This document shows positions 5,124-55,856 of a stretch of DNA of 64,000 nt, piece after piece. The notes beneath the pieces are model-generated. The model had not been told where the DNA came from, searched no databases, and saw only the letters and a list, made by a program, of their open reading frames with translations. The position numbers were made by a program, and so were the translations under genes. Positions within the stretch are counted from its first letter, which is position 1, and every line of letters starts with the position of its first letter. The stretch comes from Antedon bifida. Taxonomy: Eukaryota > Echinodermata > Crinoidea > Comatulida > Antedonidae. The DNA is taken from positions 23,441,001 to 23,505,000 of the forward strand of contig OY727095.1 of NCBI GenBank assembly GCA_963402885.1. Reading direction: 5' to 3'.

Positions 5124-7177
5124 TCATCTTTTAACAACACCAGACACACCATCACTGGGGCCTTTACCGTGCCTAGATCCAAAATAACTTCTATTAAACT
5201 CAACTCCATGGTAATTGAATTTGGCATAGCTTATATCTCCAAAGGGCCCACGCGACTTATACTGCCTACCACACCCATCCGTGAACTCTACGACTTGTTT
5301 CAAAGATAAGCCTCTAGTTTTCTTAAGGTGTTCCAGTGCAAGATTTTCAAAATGATGTACGGCATGGAAATCATGGTCAAGGTCATCTGAAAGAAAAACT
5401 AAAGCCTCTTGGACAATATGTGTTCTTGGGTCGTCAAAGTGTACACAGTTATAGTAACAAACGATAGGATGTACAGTAACTTGCTGAATAGTCCAATGGG
5501 CAGACTGTATTTCATCTTGTCGGAGACAGCTATAGTTTTCAGCAAAATCTAGCACCATCAAAGTCCAGTTTTCGGGGAGTGTTTTCGAAATGGTTGTAAA
5601 TCCATCTTGCTGCCAGTTTGCAACGAACAGATGTTTGGACAATGACTCGGTTTCTTTAACAAATTCTTGCAAAAAATTACTGACTGTGGTCCTCTCTGTT
5701 ATTACCACTTTCTTCGTCTTGGTTTTTCCACAGAGTTCATATTGCTGGTCACTCCATTTCATCCACTGGATCATTTCTTCACCATGATGTTCTTCCAATT
5801 CCATAACTTTAGTCTTGAGGAGGGACACACCACAATCTTCACACTCTCTATATATACATCCTGGTTTATTATACTTTTCGTTGTCCTCTTTTGGGCACAT
5901 AGTAAGTGCAATCAGCTCATATTTATTTTTAATTTTGATAGTAGGCATCTTGTATGCTACAGCAGCTCTGTTTAAGGCCTGTAACTTGAGGAGGATTGAT
6001 GTGCAGTACTCACAAAGGCATTGGTTTAATTTAGTTTTGTGTTGCAAAAGGACAGTATTTGGTCTCAATTTCTGAAACAAAGAGTGGCTAATAATATTTA
6101 CATCTGGATTTTCGCTTTTCCACATTTTATATGCCTGATCGATAGACACTTCCATGACACTCCTCTGGACTTGTTTCTTCACAGATTTCATTAATGGTAA
6201 TTCTCTTGAAATTTTAGGATTATTATAAAAAGATTGTACCTTCTCAATCATATCAAAACTTGTAGCATCGCTCCTTCTTTTTCGCAAGTCAAGTACAGCT
6301 CCGTCATTTTTATCCATTTTCTTTCTAATACTTGAGTAGTTTGGACGTACATCCAATTGCTTTGCAAGTTTACTCTGCATTCGATATTTCTTGCTAATCA
6401 GGTGAGCACTTGCAAGTAATCTTCTGTCTTTACGGGATGAGGTGTCGCTCTTTTTTTTTAGCACCTGCAACTTATTTTTCAGGTTTTCTGTTATTAACTC
6501 TTGGAATTGTAAATCCCTTTTTCCTTTGTTGACGCCAAGACCATGTCTTCTCAATGCAGCTTTTTTTCTTGGTGTTGTTCTGCTACCTTTAACAAATTCT
6601 TCCACAATCTCGGCAAATCTTTCTGGTTCCTTGGGTAACTTAGCCCATAAACGTGATGCTGCCATTCGTTTTGCAGTAATTGATGGGAAACCAGAAGTTT
6701 TGTGAAGTAAAGGTGTTTGATTGATGTTTTGTTTCTTTGTTTTTGCATTGCGTTTCTCTCTCTTCCGTTTTGCATCTTTCTCTCTCACACGTCTTTTGTG
6801 TTGTGAAGTCATTCTCGCTCTTGATTCTCTTTTCTTGATCTTATTGTACTCGGCTTTCTTCATTTTTTCGCTACGTGTTGCTAATGGCTTTACTTTCTGC
6901 TGTATTTTCTCTCCCTCTGCTTTCTTTCTCTCTACAAATCTCTGCTGTCTTATCCTACTTTTTTCTCGATCTCTTAATTTATCTGCCTCAGACCGCCTGG
7001 CCCTACGCTGGCGATGCATTCTCTCTTTCTTGAAAACGTGTCCACTATTCTGGATCTTTTTTTTTTAAATCTTTCTCTATACAATTTTGAATGGATGGCA
7101 CCTCTGGAAGTTTTCGGGGTTGGTGAGCCCTTATCTTTATCATCTCTTCCATATTTTACTTTTATTTTTAAAACCAT
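5124..7177 (-). CDS. DDE-like transposase of the 3.09-8.87 kb element
   Basis: The main frame (7019 to 5124) encodes 631 residues. An upstream frame from 7177 adds about 40 basic residues and joins the main frame if the A-run near 7057-7066 gains one base. Order in the 631-residue frame: a very basic region (1-95); a helical middle; Cys pairs QCLCEYC (about 333-339) and CEDCG (about 393-397) that look zinc-binding; then the probable catalytic core, LDFAENYS (D491), SDDLDHD (544-550) and FTDGCGRQYKSRG (579-591). This core recurs in many uncharacterised invertebrate proteins, and a truncated relative lies at 20619-21275. The frame stops right after GVSGVVKR; a second frame (5227 to 4994) continues for about 45 residues, so the C-terminus may be frameshifted. 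Role: cut-and-paste transposition, inferred from the element ends and acidic motifs. Confidence 0.7.
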
Positions 7178-12184: not shown

Positions 12185-14231
12185 CTAAATACAACTGGAA
12201 ATGCTATTTTTCTGTACTATTGACCCTTGACCTTGACTCGTACTGTATCTTAAAAACGGCTGGTCATAAAAATTTAATAATGGTCTCAAATTGCTCAGAC
12301 CTTGTATATTATATACAATTTCCTTTTCCATACTTTGTGTAAGATCCTCTACCTGCCTTTCCATAATTTGATTTCCCCCTTTCGCCCGAATACAATTCTT
12401 AATTTTACCTAACATACAAAGCATATCTGTTTAAGACAGATGTCTACCATCATTACTTTCAATGTGTTCGACCTCCTCAATCTCGTTTGACATCACTTCC
12501 GGGATGCCCCCACCATAACTTTCTAGGAGATCGATCTCCCACTGGGAGGGCATCGTCGATGGCCACATATGTATCAGCATCGCTGTCGATCTGCCCAACC
12601 GACTTCTGCTTCCAGTACAGTCCTTCACGTATAAAAAATCCAGGAGAGCAATTCATTGCTCTCCTAAAATACTGAGGAGAGCAATTTGCTCTCCTAGTAC
12701 AGTACATGGTGCAAAATGTGGACTTGCCTAGGCTGGGTCCGGGAGGAGAGCAATTATCTGCATTATCCAAAGTTGAATCAACCAAGATGTCGAAGCCACA
12801 ACGGTTGAAGCACTTGGTGATAGTCGCCGTAGTTTCTTGCCATGCGGCTGCAGTCCAATTAACAGCATCGAGGACGTTGATTTGTTTGGTAACATCTGAA
12901 GCCGATTCAGCTACATCAATTTTGGCGAGTACACTCCTCATCAGTTTGGCTCTGTAGCGACTCTTGAAAGCTTTAATAATGCCTTGGTCTAGCGGCTGTA
13001 GCACTGACGTGTTGTTCGCTGGCAGAAATGCAAGTTTCACGTGTGATTTATCTCCGTCGACATGGCAGTATGTGTCTGGCGATTGAGGTCGTTAAGGTAG
13101 TCATCAAAAAAGGCTCCAGTCATCCATGCTTTGCGGTTCACCTTCCATACGACGGGCAGTTGGTCTTTATTGATGTTCTTAAAACATCATGGGTTTTCAG
13201 CTCGGTTACTTATCATAGGTTTAACTGAAATGAAAAAACACAAAAATAATTATGGTGACGATAAAGTCTTTCACGTTTGCACCATGATGATGACTGCAAC
13301 AACGATCATGACTATGAGGTAACCATGATGATGAAAATAAAAACATTGTGGCGAAAGACAATTAACATCCAGAAAACTGATGACGATAAAAATGATTACA
13401 TTATGACGAAAGAAAATGTTTAAAAATAACATGATGCTTGAAATGAATGGATTGGTAAATTTAATTGCAAACATAATTATGATGGTGAAAATTGACAAAG
13501 ATTGTGATGGTCATGATCTAAGACAAATTACAAAATTAAGACAATCGTTAAGTTAATTCATGATGCTGAAAATTAATAAGTGGTCCCGACCTAAAATAAA
13601 TCTTTTGCTTACCTTTTCACCAGTCTTTCTGCATGTAAACATTACTGTAATCCGCTCTTTTGAATTCTATACTCCGGTAACATCGTCCTGTTTTTCGGCG
13701 AGTGTTCGATCTGGCAGTGCTCTGAAATAGAGGCCTGTTTCATCACAATTGAAGATGTCTTCGGGAGAATATCCAACACATAAATCAGCGATTTTACTTT
13801 TCCATTCAATCACAACATTCTGTCTACATCTCCACGTTCACCACAAACCGTCACTTGCTTGATCTCATTTCGTTTTATCCATCAGATGCTCCAAAGTTAG
13901 TTATGTTCAATTGCTCTGCAAATTGAGTAGCCTTTGCTTTTATTAGTGGCCCGCTAATAGGAATGTTCTTATCTCTGGCCGTCCTAAACCACACCAATAT
14001 TAACCGATTTAAATCATTGAATCTGGTTTTCACAACTCGGAATTTTGTGCCTGTGTTCTCCTCCATTTTCGATTTCCATTTGTCTTTTGCTTTAAATATG
14101 TCGCCTACAGTTGTCTTTCCCACACCATATTTCTTTGCTACATCAATTCGTTTCATTCCGCTTTCTACATCATTAATTAATCTAAGTTTAGTCACTACAT
14201 CAATTTTGGTTCGTTTTCGTTTGGTTGCCAT
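12185..14231 (-). pseudogene. pogo/Tigger transposase remnant (CENP-B/Jerky-like)
   Basis: From the ATG at 14231: a CENP-B-type helix-turn-helix (MATKRKRTKIDVV, then IDVAKKYGVGKTTVGDIF) and the start of the second DNA-binding domain (PISGPLIKAKATQFAEQLN), which stops at 13875. Around 13700-13750 a broken frame still shows FNCDETGLYFRALPDR, holding the first catalytic aspartate. At 13131-13160 a tryptophan-rich piece remains (VVWKVNRKAWMT). At 13040-12870 NNTSVLQPLDQGIIKAFKSR carries the third acidic residue. The second catalytic motif (DNxxxH) between these is missing. A tail to about 12185 may be the family's carboxy end. There are many stops and frameshifts; it is not functional. A GGAGAGCAA motif cluster lies within the tail. 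Confidence 0.75.
12640..12700. repeat. GGAGAGCAA/TTGCTCTCC palindrome cluster
   Basis: Contains two paired copies of GGAGAGCAATT with its complement, preceded by CACGTATAAAAAATCC, closely matching the left inner part of the hAT-like element at 1953-2040. It is either a fragment of the same element family inside the pogo remnant or an independent insertion without recognisable ends. Confidence 0.5.
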
Positions 14232-20618: not shown

Positions 20619-21275
20619 TCAATTTCTATGATATTCTGATTTAAAACCAAATTTTGTTTGTATTAATAACAGTACGATGGCTTTATCTCCTGCTAACTGC
20701 TCTTTAAGGTTTCGCAAGTAGGCAGCCTGGGCTTTTGTTACAAAATGGTGTTGACGAAGTTTATCTAAAGCATCGCATAGTGTCTGAAGGAGTTCTTGAA
20801 TTGACAGTTGTAAAGATGCAAGTTGTGTTCTGTCTGTGTGCATCCATTGCTTTTAATTAACAGAATCTTCCATGTCAACTTCGTAGTCTGAGCACACTTG
20901 CGACAAATAGCTCATGAGGGCTGCTTTACCAGGACAGTTGGTACAAGACCGCATCATGCAGTCCCGATTACTTATGTAGCATACCATTCTTGCGAGCAGG
21001 TCTTTGTATTCTTGTTTATTAGGAAGAGCTGCAATAAGAAGCTTCACATTCTGATGTTGTTGGCAGACACAAACTGAATGCATTCCCTTACTGTTCACAG
21101 AGACCCACCATTTCGGACGCAACTCACAAAATTTCGAAAATCCAATCTTATCATCAGTAGCTTTTTTGAACTCTATGTACAATTCGTTTAGGTTAACAAG
21201 TAACAAGCGTTTTTGAATTTGGCACTTTTCACCCTCTATTCTTACCGAAAAATACTGTTTTTTGCCTAGACACAT
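20619..21275 (-). pseudogene. front half of a transposase related to the 5-7 kb gene
   Basis: Frame 21275 to 20853, one TAA, then the same frame to 20619. Motifs: KFCELRPKWWVSV and HSVCVCQQHQNVKLL (equivalent to FQKLRP...QCLCEYC in the 5124-7019 protein), CMMRSCTNCPG (a CxxC knuckle), KQWMHTDRTQLA, then HHFVTKAQAAYLRNLKEQL and DKAIVLL. In relatives this last piece is followed by the DFAENYS catalytic segment; here homology ends at IVLL, so the catalytic core is lost. The TAA at 20853-20855 interrupts DSVN-KQW, where relatives have a sense codon. It abuts a Tigger transposase, whose stop overlaps its start by a few bases in another frame. Confidence 0.6.
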
Positions 21276-22481
21276 CCTTGGTGTTTTGGTGCAAATTCTG
21301 CCGTGTCATCCTCGGCAGCATCGTTCGAAGATTCTTCATCTCCAAGTAACTGTCGCCAGCTTCTTTTTAGGTTTGTTTGAGTGGCATCTTCCCATGACTG
21401 GGATATCCATCCAACACAATCTTTTATGGTTAGACGTTTAATGCTGTCGGGTATATCGTCATCATTTGCAAGGATGTGTCGTAGGAGATGTTTCTTGTAT
21501 CGCCGTTTTAGTGGTTCTAAAATTCCCTGATCCATTGGTTGGATAACACTGGTTGTATTTGGTGGAAAATATTCCACCCAGACATTTCCATCTTCTGAAA
21601 CCAGATCCTCTTTCGATGGATGTGATGGTGCATTGTCCAGTAAGAGCAGAATCTTGTATGGGACGTAGTTTTCCTGACACCATCTACGAACAGTCGGAAC
21701 AAACTCTTTATGGAACCACTGCTTAAATATTGATGCATCCATCCAAGCTTTGTGTTGGTTGTAATACCTTACTGGAAGGCTGGACATGTCATCATTCTTG
21801 TAGCAACGAGGTTTTTTTGACTTGTGGATAAATGTCAACGGCAATTTAAATGTTCCGGCAGCGTTGGCACATCCCATGAGTGTTACCCTGTCTTTTGACT
21901 GTTTGAAGTTTTTCGCGTTTTTTTCATTTCGTAAAACTAACGATCGATTTGGCATTAATCGCCACCACAAACCAGTTTCGTCGGCATTGAATATCTGCGC
22001 TCTTGAAAGCTGATTGTCCTCAATAATTTTTTGGAGTTTTATTTTAAATGGCTCAATGGCATCTGTGTGTGCCGATAGCGATTCCCCTTGAAGAGTAGTC
22101 CATCTAATGCCAAGCCGAGCTTTAAATTTGTCAAGCCATCCATCGTTAGCCAAAAACTTTTGTCCAGAATACAAATTTTCAGAAAAAACTATCGCCTTCT
22201 CGCGTAACAAGGGGCCTGATAACGATACCCTTCTCGAACGTTGCTGTTGCATCCAAGTGTAAAGGGCCGCGTCAACCTTCTCAAAGATCGGTGTTTTAAC
22301 ATAAGCCGCTTTGAACGCCTTTGCAGGGTTTTCGTTGGTTGAAACAGATTGTGGCAACTGTCGATTTAGACAGACCAAGTCGTTTTCCAATAGCTGCATT
22401 TGATTCATTATTTTGATATGCTGTAATGACATTGATTTTTGTTTCAAGAGATATAGACTGCCTGGATCGTTTCGAAGCCAT
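21266..22481 (-). pseudogene. pogo/Tigger transposase, nearly complete
   Basis: ATG at 22481: MASKRSRQSISLETKINVI and IGKRLGLSKSTVATI form the CENP-B-type helix-turn-helix, then one frameshift near 22340 into the long frame. That frame has the second DNA-binding domain (VSLSGPLLREKAIVFSENL) and the DDE_1 core: NADETGLWWRLMPNRSL, KTWMD-like HKAWMDASIFKQWF, LLLLDNAPSHPSKE, and FPPNTTSVIQPMDQGIL. The acidic triad is thus visible as D in ADETG, D in DNAPSH and D in PMDQG. A carboxy region with WRQLLGDEESS precedes the stop. Only the single frameshift blocks a full protein, so this copy is much younger than the one at 12-14 kb. Clear terminal repeats were not found. Confidence 0.8.
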
Positions 22482-23049
22482 AGCTAAAATGAAATGACTT
22501 GCCCAAAGTCGCATTATTAAAACACGATAGAGCAAGCAAAACGGATGTTCCTCCCCATCGTCAATTAATACAAAAATATTTGTGAACATAAACAATTATC
22601 ATTTTAAACAAAGCCTAGTTGTTCCATAAAACAATCTAGAATGAAATGTTTATTCCTTTATCGGGGTTTTATTAACACGGCGGTAAAATAAAAAACAACA
22701 AAATGTTTATTCCTTTTATTGGGGTTGTTTTAACACATCGGTAAACTTAAAATAAATCCTAACGATTGATTTTGCCGACTGTTGAGTCGTTGTTTACTGT
22801 GTACTGACTGAGTACAGCTATTTTTAGAAAAACGCGTCACAGTTATGAAGTGTCGGCGGCCGAGTCGAGACGAACCAATTTTTAGGTCCCTGGATTAAGG
22901 TGCCTCTCCGGAGGCCACTGAAAGTTCACACCTAATAGGACTAGTTCAATTGCAACCTTAATTTATTAATTTAAATTATGAGTGCAGAGTATTAATTGAG
23001 CAATAATACGCAAATCATACACAATTTAAGATATTTATTTTCCACCTAC
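22482..23049. other. non-coding, with two similar 45-bp segments
   Basis: AATGTTTATTCCTTT..GGGGTT occurs twice (near 22640 and 22700), each followed by AACAC and CGGTAAA. They may be part of the neighbouring Tigger element's untranslated end. No gene. Confidence 0.4.
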
Positions 23050-33239: not shown

Positions 33240-36235
33240 AAATATAAAGTACATACCCTTTGTTCTCATCGCCAGGCCCGATGACCACCCCTTCTAAAAA
33301 TTCAGTATCGTCAGTCTGAAATTAGAATTGTTTTAATTAATAACTACAACGTACAAATCACATCTAATTCATCTCAAAATACAAAGCAATTCACCATCAT
33401 TTTTATAAGTACATTCATTTCTAATCAATATGTATTAATTTCATTTACGCTATTTCCATTCCAGAAATACGACAAGTTTCATTCTTCCTTAATAATTAAG
33501 TTAAACCTTTATTTACTTCACTATCAAAACAAAAAAATCTTAATATTTAATCGCGTGCAACGCGACTCTACAGCTTACTATGGTTGGTCGGTAAACACTA
33601 ACTTGAGCACGCGACGGCAGCTATGTATATAGCCTTGTTAACAAGAGATATTTATTTATTCAAAAATAAAATATATTGGTAATAATTAAATAACATCTGA
33701 GTAGGCTCAAGCTTAATTTCTAACACAAAATATGTTGAGCTTAAAACATTCAATATGACTTTACCGATACTAATTATACTGTACAACCAACAAACTAACA
33801 TCGTAGTGCCCAGACGACAATTGAAAGAATTAGGCCAAGAGCATGCCTATTTGTTAAATATCAAGCCGCCAATAAACCTCAAACTTGGCATGCTAAAAAA
33901 AATTAATAAAACCATCACAACACTTACTTTTACAACAGTAGATCTCGTGCTTTTAAGTTTATTTGTTTCCTCTACCACTACCGCCGATATGGTAACCTGT
34001 TTCAGTGCTTTCCAGTCAATCAACTGACTTTTATCGCCCCAAGGACTAAATCAATATTTGATTTCTGTGTGCCTAACTTTAGACATCGCCTCTTATAAGT
34101 GAGTGTCTCCACTAACTTCCCCACCTGAAAATTTATTTTACATAAAGCATCAAAATTGAAAATGCTATTGTTAGTCACAAAGCAACTTTACTTTATAAAT
34201 AAAATTAACATTATTAAACACCATCTAATAAATACAAATATTCATCAATAATTACCTCTAATACATTCCCTTTCACCAATAGCCTTCCCTTATGGGGGCT
34301 AACTTCCCTTCGCTTCCATCACAGTAACCATTTCTGGCTTCAAAAATTTATCAATGATCTCTTGATTGATTGAAAAGTCACCAACTTTGCACAACACCTA
34401 TAACCACAAAAAATAACAAGACATGACTACTATACAACATAAATCAAACAATACATTCAACTCTAAACTACCACAACATACTCTATACCTAACCACTCTA
34501 TTATAAAACAAATCTACAAGCCATCCGATAACTAATAATCACCTTAAAAAAACACTTACAAACTAATAAAAATCTAACCTTGGATTTCGCTAATAAGCTG
34601 ACAGCGTCGTTTTTCACTATAACATTGGTTATTATAACTTTTTTCCAACTTTTCAATTCCAGCATTTTCTTCACACCAGCGGTATCCATGTCATTTATAT
34701 AACATGAAATTACTTTATTTTCATTTTCTATCAACACATTTCCAACACCAAATGATCTCCCGTCACTTGAAGCTACCCTTACTTCGAACTCTTCAACAAT
34801 TACCAATTTCAATGTTTGTTTAAAACTCATTGCGCTCTCTTCCTATTTTCAAAATAAAGTTCAACAACTTCAACTTCTCATTCTTCAACTGATCACATGC
34901 AATCGCTTCAGATCCCTTATCACAATCCTCAACATATCAATTTCACGATATCAATTACAAACAACAGGCTGGCCATTTACCAATGCAATCACTTTTCAAA
35001 CACAATTAAACTTCAGCAATACCAATATAACAACTATAATATAAAAAATCAGAATCACTTTTTATTAATAAAAAAAAATAAATCTACCATTTCTGGTTCC
35101 ATCAAAGAAACATTTATTTTGGGATGTTATAAGGCAACATGAATCAAATAAAATAAATTATCCTCAAACATAAAAAAACACAATTAGTTTTAAACTAATA
35201 AAAACAGTCAATTAGGCCCTACATTACATTTTATTTCACTTCAAATTTAATCACTGTCCTATCAGATAGGTGTTAATCCCCCTGATACAGGGGCTATTTT
35301 ATGAACCAGTTCACCGGGGTAACCCCCTACTCTTCTCGAATAAACAACTGGGTTCTTTAAAATGCACACAGGTTATAACTGTATACACTGGACCTACGGT
35401 TTATAGTCCTTATCCGAGTAGATTCCAGCATCACAACTAGGATCGAGTCAGACTCGAACGCTCGCCGATGTTTTTAGCTTGGTAAACGCCGCCCCTGCCT
35501 TAACCGCTCGGCCTTAAGACTCGCAATGTAGCAGATTTTAATTAAAAGATGAAAGACCGTTTATGTGTTGTATGTATTTGTGACAACATGAATAATCATA
35601 TAACCTCTCCGCAAATATAAATCAAAATAAACAAGAAAAAAAATTCATGAGATGATAAGAAGAAAACATTCTATCAAAAACCTTTATCAATTTCCAATTC
35701 AGATAGAAATATATTATAATACCTGCTAGGACAGGAATATAATTTGAAACCCTGGGAGAAAATATATTTTTATCCTCAAATTCAAACAATAGTAGGGACT
35801 GTTTACTGTTAAATAAACTGTACAGGTCCCCGTGGACTATTAGTCTAACCCAATCTACACTATTAACTTCCAAATGCCTGTAAACATCATATCTTCATGC
35901 CCTGAACTGATTGCACTATTGTCCCATTGTTAACTAGATATTTTTAAAATAAAGTTTTGCATCCAAACCTGCAATTACGCAAATTAATTACTAAACTTTA
36001 AAACAATTCAATAACTAACTATTAGACACATCCACAACATTATATACAATTAACACCACCATTAATTCCATTGTAGCTTACAACCTAAAATAACTGAATT
36101 GTAGGCCTATATTAAATAAAACCCTAAACAAATACTGCGTGTACCGTCATATTTCAGATTTTTTACTCATAATTTGATTGACAAATATCATCTAATACTC
36201 AATTTTATAATAAATAACACCTAAAATAAAACAAA
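33240..36235. repeat. duplicated block D, copy 1
   Basis: Direct-orientation similarity to 45893-47765. Shared content: OB-fold exons 3 and 4, intergenic sequence, the tRNA-derived SINE head and its flank. Copy 2 lacks about 34305-34850 (exons 1-2), about 35205-35455 (SINE body) and about 35692-36065. Confidence 0.75.
35240..35525 (-). mobile_element. tRNA-derived SINE
   Basis: On the minus strand from about 35525: AAGGCCGAGCGGTTAAGGC fits a tRNA D-arm/A-box (Ser/Leu type), and GTTCGAGTCTG fits the T-arm/B-box about 50 bases on. A non-tRNA body of about 200 bp follows to about 35240. The anticodon arm does not fold as a functional tRNA and there is a continuing body, so I call a SINE rather than a tRNA gene. 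Pol III internal promoter boxes are visible. Confidence 0.6.
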
Positions 36236-37178
36236 AATGGTATGTTTACTGTCAAGTATTTCTGCGTCAAAAGAAGTGTGGAAAAAAAAAACAGGCACAT
36301 AACAAACTTAACCTACGGACCCCTTCCTAATACTACCAGCATTATTATTCATGCTTACAATTACAACTACTAAAACAACCAACGTTACACAATAATACCG
36401 ACAAACATGACAAATAAATATTTCTAAAACCCGACTTCGACAACATCATTTTCTAAGTCACTTATATATAACAAAACATACTTCCATTCAGAAAATGAAG
36501 GCACACAATAAATTATAAACCCCCCGGTGATATCCTGAAAATGTATTAATTAATTTGATACGATAAAGATAAGGAAGTCGATGAGAATGACAAAAAGTCG
36601 CGAAATCAAATTATGCCCTCAGATAAATAAACATATCAATTATTCATTAAAGTCAATGTTCCTTTAGTTTACAAAATAATATTGTACGCAATATCTAGTC
36701 GACAGTTATTAAATGCAAACACAACATTCCCAGTTTCATTCAAACTCGATATAATTCAACATGTTTTTTTCCATTGCTGTTGCAAAATTAATGTAGTTTT
36801 TTATTTTAAAAATAAGTTTTGTAAATAGCGTCGACAACATCATGTCAAAGTAATTTGGGTAGACTTTCTAATATATACTGACCATTAGATCAATGGAGTT
36901 TTCATATTACTGTTCAATAACAAATGTTTTTTGGAAATTAACATTAGTAATCGATGTATTTGTTGTATTCAATGAACTTGATGTCATAATATAGGATATT
37001 AACTGTTAGGTTTTCTACTTATCAAACAGAATGTTCTGAATTGAAATCTTGATTGCTTGCGAAACTTTTCACATTCTCACGGACTTTCTCATGATATTTC
37101 AAAATAATTTATTTAATTTCTATTTATCACCGGAACGTTCAGAATTATTTTTATGCATGCCTGTGGTATTAATTATAT
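36236..37178. other. no gene seen
   Basis: AT-rich sequence between block D copy 1 and block A copy 2. Nothing supportable. Confidence 0.4.
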
Positions 37179-37330
37179 TTATGTAAAGGTATCCATTTCT
37201 AGACCCAAAGTACATTTCTCTCCGTCTTATTGAATTTCCGTCACATTTGTTTGATAAACTTGTCAAAGAGTTTTATTTATTTCCCAGTGGGAGAGAACAA
37301 AAGACAGGATGACATATTCCAGGAGTCCAC
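37179..37330. repeat. duplicated block A, copy 2
   Basis: Near-identical to 25174-25328, same orientation. The stretch to 37747 between this and block B copy 2 is unrelated to its counterpart and holds no gene. Confidence 0.7.
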
Positions 37331-38612
37331 TATCACTCACAGCTCCTGAGCCTACTAAGATATGCAAAGGTATATTACAAAGTTCACCCAGATTACCAAT
37401 GACACAGTCAGTCTACTCAAACATACTAACATTTCACCCCCCAAACCTACAGCCATATTACTTATACGTATCCTTTGTTTTCAACAACCAGTGCGAATCA
37501 CCCCTATACAAATTAGGTACCGACACCCCATCTAAACTGTTAAGCAACTTAACAAATGCATAAAAAACCATACTTAGTTCACCCTAAACGTCATAATAAC
37601 CAAACATAAATATCATAACAAATGAACAAACTATAACTACCTTTAATTCCATAACCATTAATAAATGCATTTACACAATTTCCATCCAGTTACAAAATAA
37701 AGTATCTTCTTTATTCATTAATTAAAAAAAATAATCAAACCTTCAGTTACTTCATTATCATATTGAAATAACTGCAAAATAATTAATACTACATGATTAA
37801 TTAATAATTTATGATTACAATATCCCAAAAATACACTAACTTCAAAAAGTTTAACTTTGATTATCCATCAACTACCGACGGCCACTCACCTAACAACTTC
37901 AGCCGTTGTCACTTCCCAACATATCAATTTTACTCTCAATCACAAACAATAACCCCGCCCTTTTTAAGATTATAAACAAACGACAAGAATCCAAACTGCA
38001 CTAACAAACATTATCCTCGTCAACAAAAATCAATATTACATATTATTGTCATTATTATTATAATAACCATTTAATATCATTATTACTCTTCTTACCATTA
38101 TCATCAAATACTATTATCATATAGTATAAGTGTATCGAAACAAAACATAAGACCCTTTCAAATCTATAACTTTAATAAACAACAAACCATCTATAATTAG
38201 GCGAATTATAGGTTATATGCATTCATTTAAATAAAGATAATTGATTGTAAAAAGATATATTGATTAATTGATTTTGTCAGAATCTATTTTTATTTATGAT
38301 ATATGGAAGTAGGATCTAGCTAACGCAAATACAATACCCAGTATCACAATCCGATCAAACATCCCTCTGCTTATAATTTCATAAACCACATTTAATACAT
38401 AAAAATAAAAACAAAAGTTACTTTTTCTCTAAATTCCATTATAAATCATGTGTATACTATAGGCCTACACTAAGAAAAAAATATTCTTTTCCCAAAGTGA
38501 AACTCTATCTCGGTACCTTAAATGATATAGACGCGATTACAGACCACCGAGCCATACAGAACTGACTGAGAGTACAAGAATAATTCCTCTGTACTGTATA
38601 TTATTTAATATT

Positions 38613-45892: not shown

Positions 45893-47765
45893 GGTTCTTC
45901 GTTCTCATCGCCAAGCCCGATGACCACCCCTTCTAAAAATTCAGTATCGTCAGTCTGAAATTAGAATTGTTTTAATTAATAACTACAACGTACAAATCAT
46001 ATCTAATTCATCTCAAAATACAAAGCAATTCACCATCATTTTTATAAGTAAATTCATTTCTAATCAATATGTATTAATTTCATTTACGCTATTTCCATTC
46101 CAGAAATACGACATGTTTCATTCTTCCTTAATAATTACGTTAAACTTTTATGTACTTCACTATCAAAACAAAAAAAATCTTAGTATTTAATCTTGTGCAA
46201 CGCGACTCTACAGCTTACTATGGTTGGTCGGTAAACACTAACGTGAGCACGCGACGGCAGCTATGTATATGGCCTTGTTAACAGAGATACTTATTTATTC
46301 AAAACTAAAATATATTGGTAATAATTAAATAACATCTGAGTAGGCTCAAGCTTATAAAGTCACGCCTTCCTACACATCTCAAGCTTAATTTCTAACACAA
46401 AATATGTTGAGCTTAAAACATTCAATATGACTTTACCGATACTAATTATACTGTACAACCAACAAACTAACATCGTAGTGCAATTATTTTAACACACTCC
46501 AACCCAAAACACCTTGCCCAGACGACAATTGAAAGAATTAGGCCGAGAGCATGCCTATTAGTATTTGGTAAATATCAAGCCGCCAATAAACCTCAAACTT
46601 GGCATGCTAAAAAAAATTAATAAAACCATCACAACACTTACTTCTACAACAGTAGATCTCGTGCTTTTAAGTTTATTTGTTTCCTCTACCACTACCGCCG
46701 AAATGGTAACCTGTTTCAGTGCTTTCCAGTCAATCAACTGACTTTTATCGCCCCAAGGACTAAATCAATATTTGATTCCTGTGTGCCTAACTTTAGACAT
46801 CGTCTCTTATAGGTGGGTGTCTCCACTAACTTCCCCACCTGAAAATTTATTTTACATAAAGCATCAAAATTGAAAATGCTATTAGTCACAAAGCAACTTT
46901 ACTTTATAAATAAAATAACATTATTAAACACCATCTAATAAATACAAAAATTCATCAATAATTACCTCTAATACATTCCCTTTCACCGATAGCCTTCGCT
47001 TAGGGGGGCTTCCCTCTAAGTTCAACAACTTCGACTTCTCATTCTTCAACTGATCACGTGCAATCGCTTCAGATCCCTTATAACTATCCTCAACATATCA
47101 ATTTCACGATATCAATTACAAACAACAGGCTGGCCATTTACCAATGCAATCACAACTTTTCAAACACAATTAAACTTCAGCAATACCAATATAACAACTA
47201 TAATATAAAAAATCAGAATCACTTTTTATTAATAAAAAAAAATAAATCTACCATTTCTGGTTCCATCAAAGAAACATTTATTTTGGGATGTTAACATCAA
47301 ATCAAATAAATTATCCTCAAACATAAAAAAAACACAATTAGTTTCAAACTAATAAAACACACTCGAACCCTCGCCGATGTTGTTAGCTCAGTAAACGCCG
47401 CCCCTGCCTTAACCGCTCGGCCTTAAGACTCGCAATGTAGCAGATTTTAATTAAAAGATGAAAGACCGTTTCTGTGTTGAATGTATTTGTGACAACATGA
47501 ATAATCATAATAATAACCTCTCCGCAAATATAAAACAAAATAAACAAGAAAAAAAATTCATGATGATAAGAAGAAAACATTCTATCAAAAACCTTTATCA
47601 ATTTAGCTTACAACCTAAAATACCTAAATTGTAGGCCTATATTAAATAAAACCCTAAACAAATACTACGTTTACTGTCATATTTCAGATTTTTTACTCAT
47701 AATTTGATTGACAAATATCATCTAATACTCAATTTTATAATAAATAACACCTAAAATAAACAAAA
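45893..47765. repeat. duplicated block D, copy 2 (OB-fold gene remnant)
   Basis: Contains OB-fold exon 3 (46838-46642) and exon 4 (to about 45899). Both match copy 1 closely, including the same one-base loss in the LVLWGD segment. Exons 1-2 are removed by a deletion of about 0.55 kb and the terminal exon is absent. The SINE head survives at 47361-47435. Confidence 0.7.
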
Positions 47766-48866
47766 CCAAACTGGTTGGGTCGAGTATACCCCGTAATCAC
47801 AACATGAACGATGTACAGTATTTGATTGAAGGTCGACTCGACCTACCGGAATGGTATAGATAATATAGCTCGAATAAGAGAGTTGGAATATTTGTAAACA
47901 TAAGTATTGCTAATTTTAACAAGTGTAGCCTATACTGTAGTAAAAGGCCTGGTAGTATCAATTCCCATAGGGTCTACTACCCTAGCTAGTTCAATTAACT
48001 GAGCCGGATCGGCTAGGTCTCCTTCCTACTACTAGGTCTACTTGCTTGATGCAGTATCTGCTTTTTTGGAGAGTAAACTACTTTAGGCCTACTTAGACAA
48101 ACGGGAAACCAAACGTACGTGCGGACGGCGATCGGATCTTGTTTAGGAGTTTGGTTTATAGGATGGGTTTTGAATCCACTGAGTTTTGTTATTTATGGGC
48201 CAATCGTCTAGGCTAGCTAGGCCCATGGGCCCCAATCTTTTAACGTAGCCATTGGGGCATGGAATCCCTCCTAGTCAGAATGGCTCTCACCCATAAAAAA
48301 AAATGATTTAGGCTAGGCCTAGTACGTGAAGCCGATAATACGATCTGTACTATACTAAAGAGGTATAAAAATAGTATAATTTATGACTCCATGATCTGTA
48401 CTAAATTTTGTATTTCATTAAATGTCAAATAAATATATTCTACTACTGTTATTATTACACTTTAAGCCCAGCTTAGAAAATCTACAAAAAATGTATTTCA
48501 CAATGATCGAGTGGTCTTCATTTGACAGGGGAGAGAGATTTAAATTAGTTGACAAACACAACATACTGTACATGACGTTGCGAGTTTGGAATCCACTGAT
48601 GACGTGATTTTGTGAATATCTCATGAATATTAATGAGCTTCCATAAGCTGCTGATAAACAGACTTTCCATGAACTTACCCTAAAATGTATATAAAATTTA
48701 TTTTTTTTTAATTTCTCGTTATTACTTCTTCATTGTGTCTATAATATTTTTTATTTAATAAATAAACGATATTTAAAAGCAATTTTAAACCCAGAATCCC
48801 CCTTTAAATGTTTAAAAGAAATAGCTACTGAGATACTTAACAATATTATTTCAATTTACTGTAGAT
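47766..48866. other. no gene seen
   Basis: GGCCTA-rich non-coding sequence; two overlapping frames at 48418-48624 are mirror artefacts. Confidence 0.4.
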
Positions 48867-49443: not shown

Positions 49444-49519
49444 TTAGCTACAAACACAAAATTTTGAAATGTCTTGTAATGTAAGCATTTTGAACTACTT
49501 TTATAAGAAAGAGGTATAA

Positions 49520-52500
49520 TGTAGGCCACTATGTAATTTCGTGTCATTTTTTTGTTAAAAGCAAAATTCAAGCTGATTTAGTGTCTTTAGGGTGTAAAGT
49601 AATAAAAAAAATATGTTGCCATTTTTCTAAAGAAGCTTAAGGGTGTCAAATCCAAGATGGCCGCCAATACATAAAAAATCCAATAAATCTAACATGTTGG
49701 ACAAAGTAACTTCCATTTTGAATAATGTTTTACGTTAGAACTAGTGCCATATGCGTTCTATACTACATAAACCTACATGCAACAGTATTCAGCCATTTTG
49801 AATCCCAAAATGGCCGCCATTTGAGAAAATGGTTAATTTCTTATTAAGACATGTGTACTGTTAAATGACATAGATTTAAGTCACATCAAATGATAGGCAT
49901 ATGCCAACAAAATGGTAATTAACATAACATATTGACCATTTAACATACCAGTCTGCAACTCAGTCTGGCCAGTCGGCATACAACAATACTTTTTATCAGG
50001 AAAATCAAAGTTACCTTATAATTCCTCGCTTGCATCTCCTGCAAGGGTTGGGGTTAAGTTTTCTAAGTTGCTGCATTCATGAACAATACAACCGCATATT
50101 TCTGTACATGGGAGCTTATTCCTGCGGCAACTACACACATTTCCTTGACATCCAGATTTGCAGCCACATTTAATAAGTGCAATTATAGCTTCTGGTGCAG
50201 GGGCATTTAAGCATCGCACTGGAACAAACTTGTCTTCTTCCAATTCCCATCCATAGTCAGTTGGAGAAGGAAAATGTGGATGACTTTCACAGGCCTTTCT
50301 CCACACCATTGCAATGTAATGTGCTCTCAGGATGTGTGGTTGTAATGAACCTTTAGTGGGAGGAAGACTCTCTCCCTCTGCTTGACGGTTCGAATATAAG
50401 AACCAGCGTAGTTCATCAACTTTAGTGTGTAATTTTGATCTATACAGCAAACAAACAAACTTTTCTAATTGGGTTGTCATTTCTGGACCTGGTTCTGTTA
50501 TGTCATCCTGACCTAGTAAAGCCAATACATCCAATATTCCGTCTTCCAATGACATGAACACCTTCATGCACCAGTCTTTTGTCCTTCCAGCAAACCTGCC
50601 ACACATATCTGATCCTGTAAATGCATGAAACCCAAGAATAGCTAATGCACGTTTTTCCCCAAGATTTTTATAGATAGGTTTGATAGGGATCTTCCTGTTG
50701 TTTTTCCCCTTTCCAGTCAGGAAAAATGTATTGACAGGTAGTTTTGGATACATGTATATCATCAACAACAAGACATCCGTATCTGGCGAGTCGATGACAA
50801 TCTCCACATCACCATTCACGGAAAGAGCATGTAGTAAAAGTAAGGTATCTGCCTCTTCATGACTATGAGTGAGTAGTGTATTTGGCACATTAATATTGCC
50901 TTTGGTCTCTGTCCCAACTGTTACCATAAATTTCTTCAGTTGATTGACAGAGCTCCTACTATGACCCAGTGTCTTTGCAGCTAAGTATTCAACTAACTCT
51001 GCCTTTGTCTTTATGTCTGAAAGAAAGTCCTTCAATGAAATATTGTTGATTAGTGAGCTATCTTGAATGTGATAGTAGGTTGACCTTCCTTTCGTTCTCT
51101 TCTTTCTCATTTGTTCTTTCAAAGAACTAGTAATGTATCTATCAAATACCAAACGAACTTCATCATACCGTTCTGCGATCACAACAAGCTTGCTCAGAAA
51201 CGAATCAGCAAAATCACTGCAATATTTCATATCATCTGTTTTGGAGATTGAGTTTACTAGTGCCATACCATCTATAACAATAACTGTGTACTGATCTGTT
51301 GTTACATCCTGGTCCATTGGTTGTATTGTTTCATCTGAAGTAATGTATTGTTCTTCAGGAATTAGTTCTTCGAGGTGATGAACAATCTTAGATTTGTCAT
51401 ATGCAAGAAGAAGTGTCCCGTCTGAAGCAAAAAGTGCACGTGGAATAACGCCAAACTTATACTTTCCTACACATACCTTCAAATCTAGATCAGGGCGACT
51501 ACGTGATACAACAATGAATCTTTGTAGGAGGCCTCTTTCTTCTTTGACTTTGATGAGTTTGTCACCTGTTTTCAGGTTCATCGCTGTATTTGCACTTTTA
51601 AATGTACCAATCTTCCTCCTTTTCATTGGATCCCATACAGACAATTTGCCCTCTACAAGACGTTCTGTTACAAATGCCTCAAACATGTTCTGCCCAATGG
51701 CATCACGCTCTAATATTTCATTTGTCACCTTCTCATTCATTACTTCTTTGCTAAGAAGATTATAAAGGTCATTACCATCAGCATTGAATGGATCTCCATG
51801 GTCAACAAACACCTGTGTGAGCAATGCAGCATTCTTCTTTATTCGGGATGCCTTTCCTCCTGTTATCTCATGGTGCTGTTTTCTAGAAAATTCGTTTCCT
51901 TTAAAATGCTGGCTTTCAAACTCAGAAACTAGATTTGCCAGCTCTGGTGCCTCGTTTAGATTTTGTGGACCTTCTGTGCTCCCGGTAATATCCTTATGAT
52001 AAGCATCTTGCAAATGAAACGATGCATCACTTAGAATATCTTTCTCTTCCGTCATTTTGTCTAAAAAACTGTCAAAATAGAGATGGTAGAGAGAAAGAAG
52101 AGTTATAGTATGGGCTTCTAGTGACCTGTATAGATGTTTTCCATTTAAGATTTGTGTTACTGTTGTAGGTGAATAGAGTCCAGCTTCAACCCAAGCTTGG
52201 TCAATTCCGCTTGCTTCAACATATTTCCCCAATGCTGCCAATGCCCAAAAGACTACATGTAGCTCACCGGGTCGAAACAGAAATTGTTTCTTAATGTCAT
52301 CTCTGTCCACCCAAAGTTTCATCGCCATATCATACAGTTGAAGGTCAAGAGTCATCACCGTTATCTTTCCTTTTCCTAATACCTGAGTTGTTATATCATG
52401 TGCTCTCATCAGACCAGTGTATAACGTTCCATATTCTGTGGGAGGTGATCGTATTAACGGTGGAACTAATGAAACATTGGTACGTCTTGCAGGAGATGAG

Positions 52501-55180
52501 AGGAGGGAGTTAAATGCTCCCCATGTTCCTGGAGCTTGTAAATGAGTATCTTTATTTCCTTCAAAGTTCAGACATTCAAGTATCCATGCCATATCTGTCT
52601 TTTTACTCATCTCTGTAATGGGCTGTGAAGTGCTCAACTTGCATGGAAACTTATTCTTTTTAGGACTTGGTTTTGAACACACTAGATATTCACATTCCAA
52701 AGCTTCATTATCTGATTGATTTTTAGCCTTTGGTGTGCGATCAATTTTAACTTTTGGTAAGATTGGTGGTTTGTCTTGATTGACAGTTTGATAAATTGCT
52801 ATTGCTGTTCCATGCAATGTATTCATGCCGCAGGGCGTGGCTTCTAGAAAATCTATGTTGTCCAGTGCGAACCAAACAAAGTTATCCTTTACAAGCCAAG
52901 GAGGAAGACACAGTCCTCCCACAGATTCCATCTGCATTTTAACAGCTTTGGCAATACCGGATTCGATTTCCATAACTTTAGAGTAACTGGTGCCAAGATC
53001 GAGCTCTTCTAACTTTGATACAATTGACTTTGATCTAGTATTCTTGTGTACATCTAGAGCTAAACCAACAGATAAAGGAGTTTCACAGTGGTTTCTAAAG
53101 TCGCCTGCCTCTGTCTTTGGTTTATAGGACACTTGTCTGTCTGATTTGTAAGCTTGAACAAAGTGTTGCGCCAAGACTGATGCACTTTGACTTATAGATG
53201 TTTCTCTTCTCTCAGTTTGAATGGGCCTTGTTCCTTGTATAGCATGCTTGCAAAACATGTACAGCAATGGTGGTGGGTCATAATCTTGAAATGTACCACA
53301 GAACTTCCATTTAGGTGAGTTTTCAATATCTTTTCTTATTAGTTTGGCTGCTTTGAGAAGAATCTGCAAGTCCTCCTTTAGATTTCCCATTTCTATTGCA
53401 ATTGATACCGCAACTTCTTTAGATTTGGTTGATAAAACTTGCTCTGACATTGTCTTGTCTAATGGTCTGTTAAAGTGTACATCAGGAATACTATCAATAA
53501 TCAGCTGCTTTAAATATGGTTTATACCGTGGATTGTTAGGTACTGATACTCCGTTGCTTTCAAGAATATTTATGTAAGTTGTTTGAATATCATTCATGTT
53601 AAGAATAGTGTCTGTTTGATTGTCAAGTTCATATTCTACTACCTCAAGTAGTTCAAGGTCAGATACAATTTTACTGCAATCATCATCATGTGTCGTTTCA
53701 GATTTACTGTTCCTATCGATTTCTCTTTTTACCTTTACTAAACAAGGAAGATGGTATTTGATATCATACGCAACTGCTGCTAGAGGATCAGCTGCTGCAA
53801 CAACATTACTAAGTCTTGCTTTAAGATTTAAATTGCTTGTGTTTTTGCCAATTTCAATGAACTGGAATCCCATGTTTTTTGTTGAAATATCATGCAGTTT
53901 AATTTCTGTGTCTTCATCACAAATAATGCATTTATGGTTGTCAAAACTATTTCTTTTGCCCCTTGTGGATGTTGAGGCAGACATATCAGTAAAGGAAGAT
54001 GGTCTTCCCCTCTTTTTTTGACGTATGGCACCAACATCCCCAACATTTATCCCCTTGTTAAATCTAGCTTTTGCCCTATCAATTTTGCCTTTGTGTGTAA
54101 GATCCTGATAGCATTGCCTGTGATAGGAAATGCCCTCATTTAACAGTTGCTCTGCACTTAAATCTTGTATACGATTAATCAATTCTACAAAATCTGTTTC
54201 GCCATACTCATATCTTAATTGAGCACTTTCTATAATTTTTTTAATTGAATCCAATGATGGTGTTGTTACGTAACTTTTATATCCACTTTGGCCACCACTT
54301 CTCTGACAAACAAAGCACACTTTTTCATCAATTAATTTTTGCTTTTTGGTTGTCAGATGAGCTTCCATGATTTGATATACAGTTTGGAAAGGATAGGAGA
54401 AGTACTGTTACCTATATGAATATAATAGCATTATTTAACTATGTTTATAAGAAGATTTATCAATATAAAAACAAAATTGAAAACATTAATTTACTAAATT
54501 TCTTTATAATCTTCTTCTATACATATTACTTATAATTAACTACTAACCTGACAAATAACATTTCACTTGGGATATCCTTTTTAGAATAAATTTAATAAAC
54601 CTGTAATTTCAAGTTTAGAAGACCATAACACAAAAGCATTTTGTGGTACCATATCATCAAAAGTGTAATGTACTTGTGAGAGAGTCAATAATGGCAATAA
54701 CTCATACAAAGTTAGACAACATTAGACAAGTTTAGACAACTTTAGACAACTTTATACAATCATATGAAAATGACTATTGTAGAACATTCTAGTACAACAA
54801 AATATTTATTTACACATATGGACACATATTAAACAAAAATATTTAAATAATTTAATTTTTTAGTGGCGGCCATTTTGAAATCCAATATGGCCGACAGATT
54901 ATACTTTTGCCTAGTCACAAATGATTGTTTAATGAATAATACCATCAAAACAGACTTGATTCACATTGATAATTTGTTTTATTGGTGACATTCTTATCTA
55001 AATAGCGTTTTTTTTAAATGTTGGCGGCCATCTTGAATTTGGGCCTTTAAATGTCTTTTAAAAAAATGGCAACATATTTTTTTTCATTCCTTATATTATC
55101 AAGATATGAAATAAAGTCTAAGTTTGCTTTTAACAAAAAATATACACAACATTCTTATAGACGACATACCAGCCTACACT
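49520..55180 (-). mobile_element. Academ-like DNA transposon with long terminal inverted repeats
   Basis: The two ends are inverted copies over about 130 bp, sharing in order TTTTTTGTTAAAAGCAAA, AAAATATGTTGCCATTTTT and CAAGATGGCCGCCAA (left 49547-49667, right 55021-55140), with a second pair of GGCGGCCAT motifs further in (49808 and 54866). Outermost matches GTAGGC...TATGT lie near 49521 and 55165-55177. Exact termini and a target duplication could not be fixed. The only gene inside is the 1450-codon ORF. Confidence 0.65.
50016..54368 (-). CDS. Academ-like transposase with FEN/XPG-type nuclease and CXC domain
   Basis: Single open frame of 1450 codons from the ATG at 54368. Order: zinc-knuckle-like N-end (CFVCQRSGG, later YHRQC); a second Cys/His cluster (HKCIICDED ... 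YHLPCL); a central region with ALDNIDFLE and NTLHGTA (about 500-520), LDLQLYDMA (about 676) and WVEAGLYSPT (about 730), which I read as the DDE-like core of Academ transposases; then a FEN1/XPG-type nuclease at about 1025-1275 with VIDGMALVNS, RLVFDRY, HSHEEADTLL, DSPDTDVLLLM and FTGSDMCGRFAG, matching the acidic ladder of flap endonucleases; and a CXC/tesmin-like DNA-binding domain (KCGCKSGCQGNVCSCRRNK, about 1397-1430). XPG-bearing Academ elements (AcademX) are known in animals. No stop or frameshift is visible, so the copy could be recently active. Confidence 0.75.
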   Translation of the reverse strand: MEAHLTTKKQKLIDEKVCFVCQRSGGQSGYKSYVTTPSLDSIKKIIESAQLRYEYGETDFVELINRIQDLSAEQLLNEGISYHRQCYQDLTHKGKIDRAKARFNKGINVGDVGAIRQKKRGRPSSFTDMSASTSTRGKRNSFDNHKCIICDEDTEIKLHDISTKNMGFQFIEIGKNTSNLNLKARLSNVVAAADPLAAVAYDIKYHLPCLVKVKREIDRNSKSETTHDDDCSKIVSDLELLEVVEYELDNQTDTILNMNDIQTTYINILESNGVSVPNNPRYKPYLKQLIIDSIPDVHFNRPLDKTMSEQVLSTKSKEVAVSIAIEMGNLKEDLQILLKAAKLIRKDIENSPKWKFCGTFQDYDPPPLLYMFCKHAIQGTRPIQTERRETSISQSASVLAQHFVQAYKSDRQVSYKPKTEAGDFRNHCETPLSVGLALDVHKNTRSKSIVSKLEELDLGTSYSKVMEIESGIAKAVKMQMESVGGLCLPPWLVKDNFVWFALDNIDFLEATPCGMNTLHGTAIAIYQTVNQDKPPILPKVKIDRTPKAKNQSDNEALECEYLVCSKPSPKKNKFPCKLSTSQPITEMSKKTDMAWILECLNFEGNKDTHLQAPGTWGAFNSLLSSPARRTNVSLVPPLIRSPPTEYGTLYTGLMRAHDITTQVLGKGKITVMTLDLQLYDMAMKLWVDRDDIKKQFLFRPGELHVVFWALAALGKYVEASGIDQAWVEAGLYSPTTVTQILNGKHLYRSLEAHTITLLSLYHLYFDSFLDKMTEEKDILSDASFHLQDAYHKDITGSTEGPQNLNEAPELANLVSEFESQHFKGNEFSRKQHHEITGGKASRIKKNAALLTQVFVDHGDPFNADGNDLYNLLSKEVMNEKVTNEILERDAIGQNMFEAFVTERLVEGKLSVWDPMKRRKIGTFKSANTAMNLKTGDKLIKVKEERGLLQRFIVVSRSRPDLDLKVCVGKYKFGVIPRALFASDGTLLLAYDKSKIVHHLEELIPEEQYITSDETIQPMDQDVTTDQYTVIVIDGMALVNSISKTDDMKYCSDFADSFLSKLVVIAERYDEVRLVFDRYITSSLKEQMRKKRTKGRSTYYHIQDSSLINNISLKDFLSDIKTKAELVEYLAAKTLGHSRSSVNQLKKFMVTVGTETKGNINVPNTLLTHSHEEADTLLLLHALSVNGDVEIVIDSPDTDVLLLMIYMYPKLPVNTFFLTGKGKNNRKIPIKPIYKNLGEKRALAILGFHAFTGSDMCGRFAGRTKDWCMKVFMSLEDGILDVLALLGQDDITEPGPEMTTQLEKFVCLLYRSKLHTKVDELRWFLYSNRQAEGESLPPTKGSLQPHILRAHYIAMVWRKACESHPHFPSPTDYGWELEEDKFVPVRCLNAPAPEAIIALIKCGCKSGCQGNVCSCRRNKLPCTEICGCIVHECSNLENLTPTLAGDASEEL

Positions 55181-55856
55181 AGTAATTGAATAAAGCAATT
55201 TAAAGCAAAAATGATTTAAATCTGACAGTATTAGCGGAGATATTATCTTTTGAAGGCGATAATCTCTATTGTTTTAGTTAAACAAAAACTGTCTCCTATA
55301 CACAATTTGCACTATGTTGTGTAATGTAAATTCAACACCAATTATCGATGAATTTTTGTTTTGTACGGTTCTATTGTATAAAATGAATTATTGATTACTA
55401 TATTCAAGGTTATTTTTAAAGGTCAAGTTCATTGATAAAGGATAAATACAACATTTCAAATAATTTAACTTTATACAGAACTGGCAATTTTATTAATAGA
55501 ATTAACTATAATAATGCATTATTATTTTAACAATCCCTTATTATTTATTATTAATTTTATTAAACATTATTTTAAATATTATTTATAAAATATATTCATA
55601 ACACAAGGCTTTCTTTTGGATATTTGGTGGTTCTGAAAAGAACTGTTTGTTTTGAGTGTTTCTTTTTATATTTTTTGTCTTCTTTTTTTTGCACATTAAA
55701 TCTATAAAACATCATCTTTGATCATTGGAACATCTTCAAACAAGCTCTCCGCCTTCCCATTAACAAGTGAAGATTCATCTAACTTCCATGTTTTGAACAG
55801 TAAAGGGTACATTTAAATCAAGAATATTTTGGTCTTTTTCTACGAGTTTCATCCAA
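55181..55856. other. no gene seen
   Basis: AT-rich; nothing supportable. Confidence 0.4.

Follow-up and report, generated by a model that had tools for sequence, protein, structure and literature searches.

The locus examined here lies in a 64-kb window (the whole stretch of DNA that was analysed, G000:C8:23441001-23505000) of a eukaryotic assembly of 315.6 Mb in 27 contigs. It raises the question of what a very long reading frame tells us about the mobile element that carries it. In a preliminary description, the absence of any stop codon was taken as a sign of recent activity or selection, and the encoded protein was credited with the ability to cut DNA ends as well as to process flaps. The answer depends on what the other copies of the element look like, on which catalytic residues the window copy still has and on what its substitutions say about selection.

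The element, its ends and its copies

Alignment to two copies of about 99% identity and comparison of their flanks, together with the target site duplications, place the element very close to the bounds given before (49520-55180). It is 5.67 kb long and both of its ends are inverted repeats. The features are as follows.

49517-55181, gene on the minus strand: whole element, from alignment to two copies of about 99% identity and their flanks
49514-49516: left target site duplication (GTA), exact 3-bp match to 55182-55184
55182-55184: right target site duplication (GTA), exact 3-bp match to the left copy
49517-49678: terminal inverted repeat on the 3' side of the gene, starting TAATGTAGGC
55010-55181: terminal inverted repeat on the 5' side of the gene, finishing in GCCTACACTA

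The inverted-repeat arms at 49535-49678 and 55010-55153 comprise 144 nt and are 74% complementary; the terminal 10 bp of the element lie outside these arms and were set by comparing the copies and their flanks.

Besides the window copy, there exist two full-length copies, L009 on the same contig, with its left end 1.31 Mb away, and L010 on contig C10. The window copy is 98.9 and 99.1% identical to L009 in two aligned pieces and shows the same values (98.9 and 99.1%) with L010, while the two sisters are 99.6% identical to each other. The flanks of all three copies are mutually unrelated, and the sisters are bordered by 3-bp duplications of their own, ATG and TGT. Three copies of about 99% identity, lying at unrelated sites and each bordered by a different 3-bp duplication, show that the element is a transposon and not a host gene. 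The near-identical copies and target duplications that the preliminary description proposed to look for were found, and a single-copy, syntenic host gene without transposon ends is ruled out by the three copies with their distinct flanks, the inverted-repeat ends and the duplications. Host genes of the Rad2 type sit elsewhere in the genome, at four places.

Full-length matches to 1001 bp from the middle of the gene occur at three places, and the remaining matches are partial, with 66-74% (both among the 40 of 130 candidates that were scored). The terminal 30 bp were found with three or fewer mismatches at 123 genomic sites, approximately 120 matching ends that belong mostly to shorter relatives; the reversed control had 0 matches. 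Both the left and the right end recur at 82-84%, in 37 of the 40 scored candidates in each search, out of 302 candidates for the left and 274 for the right end. For 20 of the shorter relatives the end pairs were matched by hand; since the ends are only 2.8 to 4.2 kb apart, these elements cannot hold the whole gene. Counting the three full-length copies and 19 of the 20 shorter relatives, a 3-bp duplication is present in 22 of 23 elements, and only the hand-paired ends L135/L136 do not possess one.

Decayed pieces of the gene are present in shorter relatives that share the element ends, for instance at G000:C10:6427172-6430922 and G000:C7:14147249-14151010. Some of the shorter relatives repeat one piece at a distance of about 827 bp, which looks like tandem repetition of an internal unit. 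There are also divergent relatives in the same genome, whose open frames range from 1148 to 1700 codons; those that were aligned are only 20-42% identical. Searches for relatives among viral contigs and among phages yielded nothing useful.

A young in-frame deletion of 459 bp

The coding part of the window copy is described by two features.

50016-54407, minus strand: open frame of 1463 codons plus stop, measured from stop to stop
51949-51950: deletion junction, at which 459 bp or 153 codons (sister residues 821-973) are missing that L009 and L010 hold in frame

The first methionine is residue 14 of the frame, which leaves exactly the 1450 unbroken codons that had been reported. With an assumed composition of 36% GC, the chance of a frame of this length is about 1e-46. 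The frame of L009 comprises 1616 uninterrupted codons (1603 from the first methionine) and that of L010 is equally long but contains one stop. The deleted form is seen in one copy only, the window copy.

It was considered whether the roughly 457 extra bases of the sisters could be an intron. This is ruled out by their translation, which is continuous in-frame coding sequence. The difference of 459 bp might also be an error of the assembly, with the locus being full length in reality, since copies of about 99% identity can mislead assemblers. Such an error is very improbable, because substitutions private to the window copy lie around the junction (codons 818, 994 and 1030) and the junction itself is a simple join with a 2-bp microhomology (GC). 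The compared sequences point to a young in-frame deletion in the window copy, and it is because this deletion is both young and in frame that the frame appears unbroken. The event is invisible from the window alone, since the missing segment is known only from the other copies.

The DDE core

52342-52862, minus strand: remnant of the DDE core with D516 and D688, conserved in the aligned relatives

D516 is kept in all seven and D688 in all eight of the aligned relatives. The 153 deleted residues include the sequence D-H-G-I-E-Q-E-N. Its residue E944 (sister numbering) is conserved in all 10 relatives aligned there, and D940 as well as N947 are conserved in 10 out of 11. These three residues are present in both sisters and deleted from the window copy. 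We presume from their conservation that D516, D688 and E944 form the DDE set, in which a long insertion separates the third acid from the second. L009 possesses this set completely, and the window copy is left without the third acid. The DDE-like motifs noticed before are therefore real as far as D516 and D688 are concerned, but the set is incomplete, as the segment with the third acid is gone.

Database profiles gave little guidance for this region. Pfam DUF6589 matches the DDE regions of two of six relatives weakly (best value 1.3e-5), a literature search on DUF6589 found no paper, and the PDB profile search with the DDE region returned kinase-like chance matches only.

Since the 153 missing residues carry the presumed third DDE acid, the window copy is probably inactive as a transposase and probably cannot jump by itself. 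For the same reason, the proposed ability of the window protein to cut DNA ends is not supported. The frame of 1463 codons, the intact ends and the clean 3-bp duplication would all suit an intact autonomous transposon that is active at present. However, a copy that lacks 153 residues held by both sisters, family-invariant ones among them, is hardly compatible with this, and we regard current autonomous activity as highly improbable. As the window copy keeps the element ends, it could still be mobilised by the protein of an intact copy.

Selection on the family and on the window copy

Changes private to the window copy comprise eight synonymous and five non-synonymous substitutions, which are fewer amino acid changes than expected under neutrality (binomial P 0.002); this count excludes the junction codon, so that the synonymous changes number eight instead of nine. 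The changes specific to the sisters, four synonymous and 11 non-synonymous of 15 with the stop included, fit neutrality (P 0.40). These numbers are small and come from three copies without an outgroup. Because there is no outgroup, the branch of the window copy includes changes from before the deletion, so that the constraint applies to the moving lineage and not to the deleted copy. The open frame in the window reflects purifying selection on the family together with a young in-frame deletion, and not selection on the window copy. Of the two explanations offered before for the lack of stops, recent activity stands in the sense of a recent arrival, whereas selection on this copy does not.

A further idea is that of a domesticated or regulatory derivative, in which the deleted protein would have been kept for binding ends or cutting flaps, either repressing the element or serving the host. 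The KP-type truncated P element offers a comparison for such a protein, and the idea gains from the deletion being in frame and from the zinc-finger-like, FEN-like and CXC-like parts that remain. However, the deletion occurs in one copy only, it would be in frame by chance in one third of cases, nothing points to selection on this copy after the deletion and the transposon ends are retained. Altogether, a derivative of this kind is improbable.

The FEN/XPG-like nuclease domain

50604-51272, minus strand: FEN/XPG-like nuclease core, window residues 1046-1268, from invariant acids and hhalign comparison to archaeal FEN1

The eight FEN-like acids of the window protein are D1046, D1089, E1184, E1185, D1187, D1209, D1211 and D1267. 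They are kept in 13 of the 15 regions from relatives, the exceptions being L019 and L032, and all 12 FEN positions examined are intact in 11 of the 15. For the profile comparison, 12 of the 15 regions were aligned; L028 and L035 were left out as near-duplicates of L017 and L042, and L032 because it has no E-E-x-D stretch, while the near-duplicate pair L018/L019 stayed in. The opposite profile was built from 18 archaeal FEN1 sequences (21 were chosen out of 53 loci, and three had a stop in the span).

The comparison of both profiles by hhalign gave a score of 37.1 over 224 columns with 18% identity, corresponding to an E-value of 3.3e-4 for a single comparison and a probability of only 38%. None of 400 column shuffles reached this score (the highest was 27.1), and the reversed profile and the DDE region scored 16.0 and 18.6, respectively. 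When single sequences were left out, the scores ranged from 32.0 to 39.7 and the alignments from 91 to 226 columns, with the 91 columns resulting from the omission of L043; without L046 the E-value was 0.0018.

The archaeal FEN1 residues D27, D80, K87, R94, E154, D173, D175, G234 and D236 align to invariant or nearly invariant residues of the family, and R1254, E1337 and D1340 of the family have no matching FEN1 residue in the profile alignment. The catalytic acids of FEN in the numbering of P. furiosus are D27, D80, E152, E154, D173, D175 and D236. Six of these seven align to acids of the family; E152 does not, though the E-E-x-D cluster sits at this place.

Other searches were less informative. 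The PDB profile search with the FEN region returned Exo1 in three of seven hits (E 0.37-0.39) with the catalytic residues in register, but the best match was a ribosomal protein and Exo1 scored no better than unrelated proteins. The archaeal FEN model matched the relative L047 with an E-value of 0.027 and 13.6 bits, far below the cut-off of 352, and no Pfam XPG domain was found in 12 relatives. A single-sequence AlphaFold2 model (mean pLDDT 43) was too poor for reading the fold. Taken as a prediction, a FEN/XPG-like domain in the family protein is supported by the profile comparison. The full acidic ladder ascribed to the window protein is thus confirmed in its eight acids and backed by the catalytic register.

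Zinc-finger-like and CXC-like parts

53740-54317, minus strand: two N-terminal C2HC zinc-finger-like sets, from cysteine and histidine conservation
50073-50168, minus strand: CXC-like cysteine cluster C1414-C1445 with nine cysteines, Pfam TCR below the cut-off

The first zinc-finger-like set (C31, C34, H96 and C99) is complete in four of seven aligned rows and the second (C160, C163, H219 and C222) in six of six, a pattern that suggests zinc binding by these C2HC-like sets. At the other end of the protein, the CXC end described previously is present as a CXC-like cluster. Its nine cysteines are kept in the rows of the 10 relatives that cover the region, with one row having C changed to S; L044 and L046 have no such region, and L017, L028 and L035 stop before it. 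Matches to the Pfam model TCR (CXC) remain below the cut-off both for the window protein (E 0.84) and for L047 (E 0.0027), and a PDB search with the window protein brought up LIN54 over the CXC-like stretch with an E-value of 5.9. Searches of Pfam, NCBIfam and PDB with the window protein itself gave no usable family assignment, and neither Pfam nor NCBIfam reported a helicase model.

Classification

The AcademX lineage was reportedly described by Kojima in 2020, and the AcademX nuclease is of XPG type. Since AcademX has already been described, the fusion of a DDE transposase and a nuclease does not represent a new kind. The window element is most likely an internally deleted cut-and-paste DNA transposon of the AcademX type, and the earlier designation as Academ-like agrees with this, given the DDE-plus-nuclease anatomy and the 3-bp duplications. 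Membership in the superfamily is assigned tentatively, by anatomy.

According to the available part of one source, the superfamily includes AcademH, with a helicase and duplications of 9 or 10 bp, and AcademX, with duplications of 3 or 4 bp, these lengths being apparently tied to the helicase and the nuclease, respectively (PMC10045372). A RecQ helicase is mentioned for Academ in an excerpt of another source (PMC3627910). Bivalve Academ elements have a mean length of 5565 bp, as far as the accessible text gives it, which is similar to the length found here (PMC10294476). Like AcademX as portrayed in these excerpts, the present family encodes transposase and nuclease together and has 3-bp duplications, though 20 of the 23 elements behind this count are hand-picked pairs. 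The nuclease is indicated by the FEN1 profile and the catalytic register, without a Pfam XPG match. A complete DDE set is found in L009; unlike AcademX, the window copy is without the stretch that carries the presumed third catalytic acid.

Most catalytic residues of the nuclease follow the FEN1/EXO1/XPG (Rad2) family in order and register. The present family differs from it by the low identity in the profile alignment, by the fusion to a DDE transposase and by the missing Pfam XPG match. The target of Kolobok elements is TTAA, in contrast to the varied 3-bp duplications of the present family. Some Kolobok lineages carry accessory nucleases or helicases, so they are likewise DDE transposons with an extra nuclease, but the types of nuclease differ, judging from the portion of the source at hand (PMC9587614). 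In the literature search, which drew partly on excerpts, no paper on a FEN/XPG-plus-CXC transposase was found.

Other mobile elements

A second Academ-like family occurs in the same genome at L044 (G000:C11:26446500-26455000), L045 (G000:C7:20480000-20488500) and a third place (G000:C12:2350337-2354206). L044 and L045 are 99.9% identical over 7.07 kb. Their inverted repeats are about 600 bp long and near-perfect, the ends read TAGTG...CACTA, and the 3-bp duplications are, by eye, CTA and TTA. The open frame of this family has 1397 codons and contains the FEN-like residues but not the CXC-like end.

Within the window, an open frame of 646 codons at 5124-7064 (minus strand) encodes a protein whose N-terminus is very basic and which has no match in Pfam. 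Another mobile-element gene is suggested by a copy of 99% identity on C11 and by numerous divergent relatives in the genome (42 matches). The frames at 21266-22483 (minus strand; Pfam DDE_1 5e-47 and a Tc5-type DNA-binding domain) and 12477-13091 (minus strand; Pfam DDE_1 1.6e-18) are identified by these matches as putative remains of pogo/Tigger-like transposases. A strong negative GC skew compared to the rest of the window (-0.36, -0.32 and -0.28) marks 34001-38000 and 46001-48000.

Proposed mechanism and significance

The intact protein would consist, in this order, of zinc-finger-like modules, a DDE core with a long insertion, a FEN/XPG-like nuclease and a CXC-like cluster. Its DDE site most likely cuts the 3' ends of the element and joins them to staggered target positions, giving rise to the 3-bp duplications; the duplications are observed, and the cut-and-join chemistry is assumed from DDE enzymes in general. 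The FEN-like site probably trims or cuts 5' strands or flaps at ends or junctions, and the zinc-finger-like and CXC-like parts probably bind DNA. Abortive gap repair is a route to internal deletions, as in the case of KP. The intact form of the window copy probably lost its 459 bp in frame through such an interrupted repair, either before or after landing at the present site. The deletion is an ordinary event, and it changes how the unbroken frame in the window should be read.

The DDE acids and the FEN-like acids alike are conserved across very divergent relatives. This points to a nuclease that transposition requires, and it makes the role of the AcademX nuclease testable. One could go further and assume a single-chain transposase with two nucleases, in which the DDE site acts on the transferred 3' strands and the FEN-like site on the non-transferred 5' strands, so that the FEN part, and not host repair, drives excision and the stagger of 3 bp instead of 9-10 bp. 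We consider this rather unlikely. If it were true, the window copy would be a natural separation-of-function form, with a dead DDE site but with the FEN-like and end-binding parts kept.

The window copy illustrates that a long open frame can be a misleading sign, since a frame of 4.4 kb without any stop may still have lost its catalytic core. Together, the DDE-deleted copy, the uninterrupted copy on the same chromosome, the copy with one stop and the approximately 120 ends form a natural comparison set.
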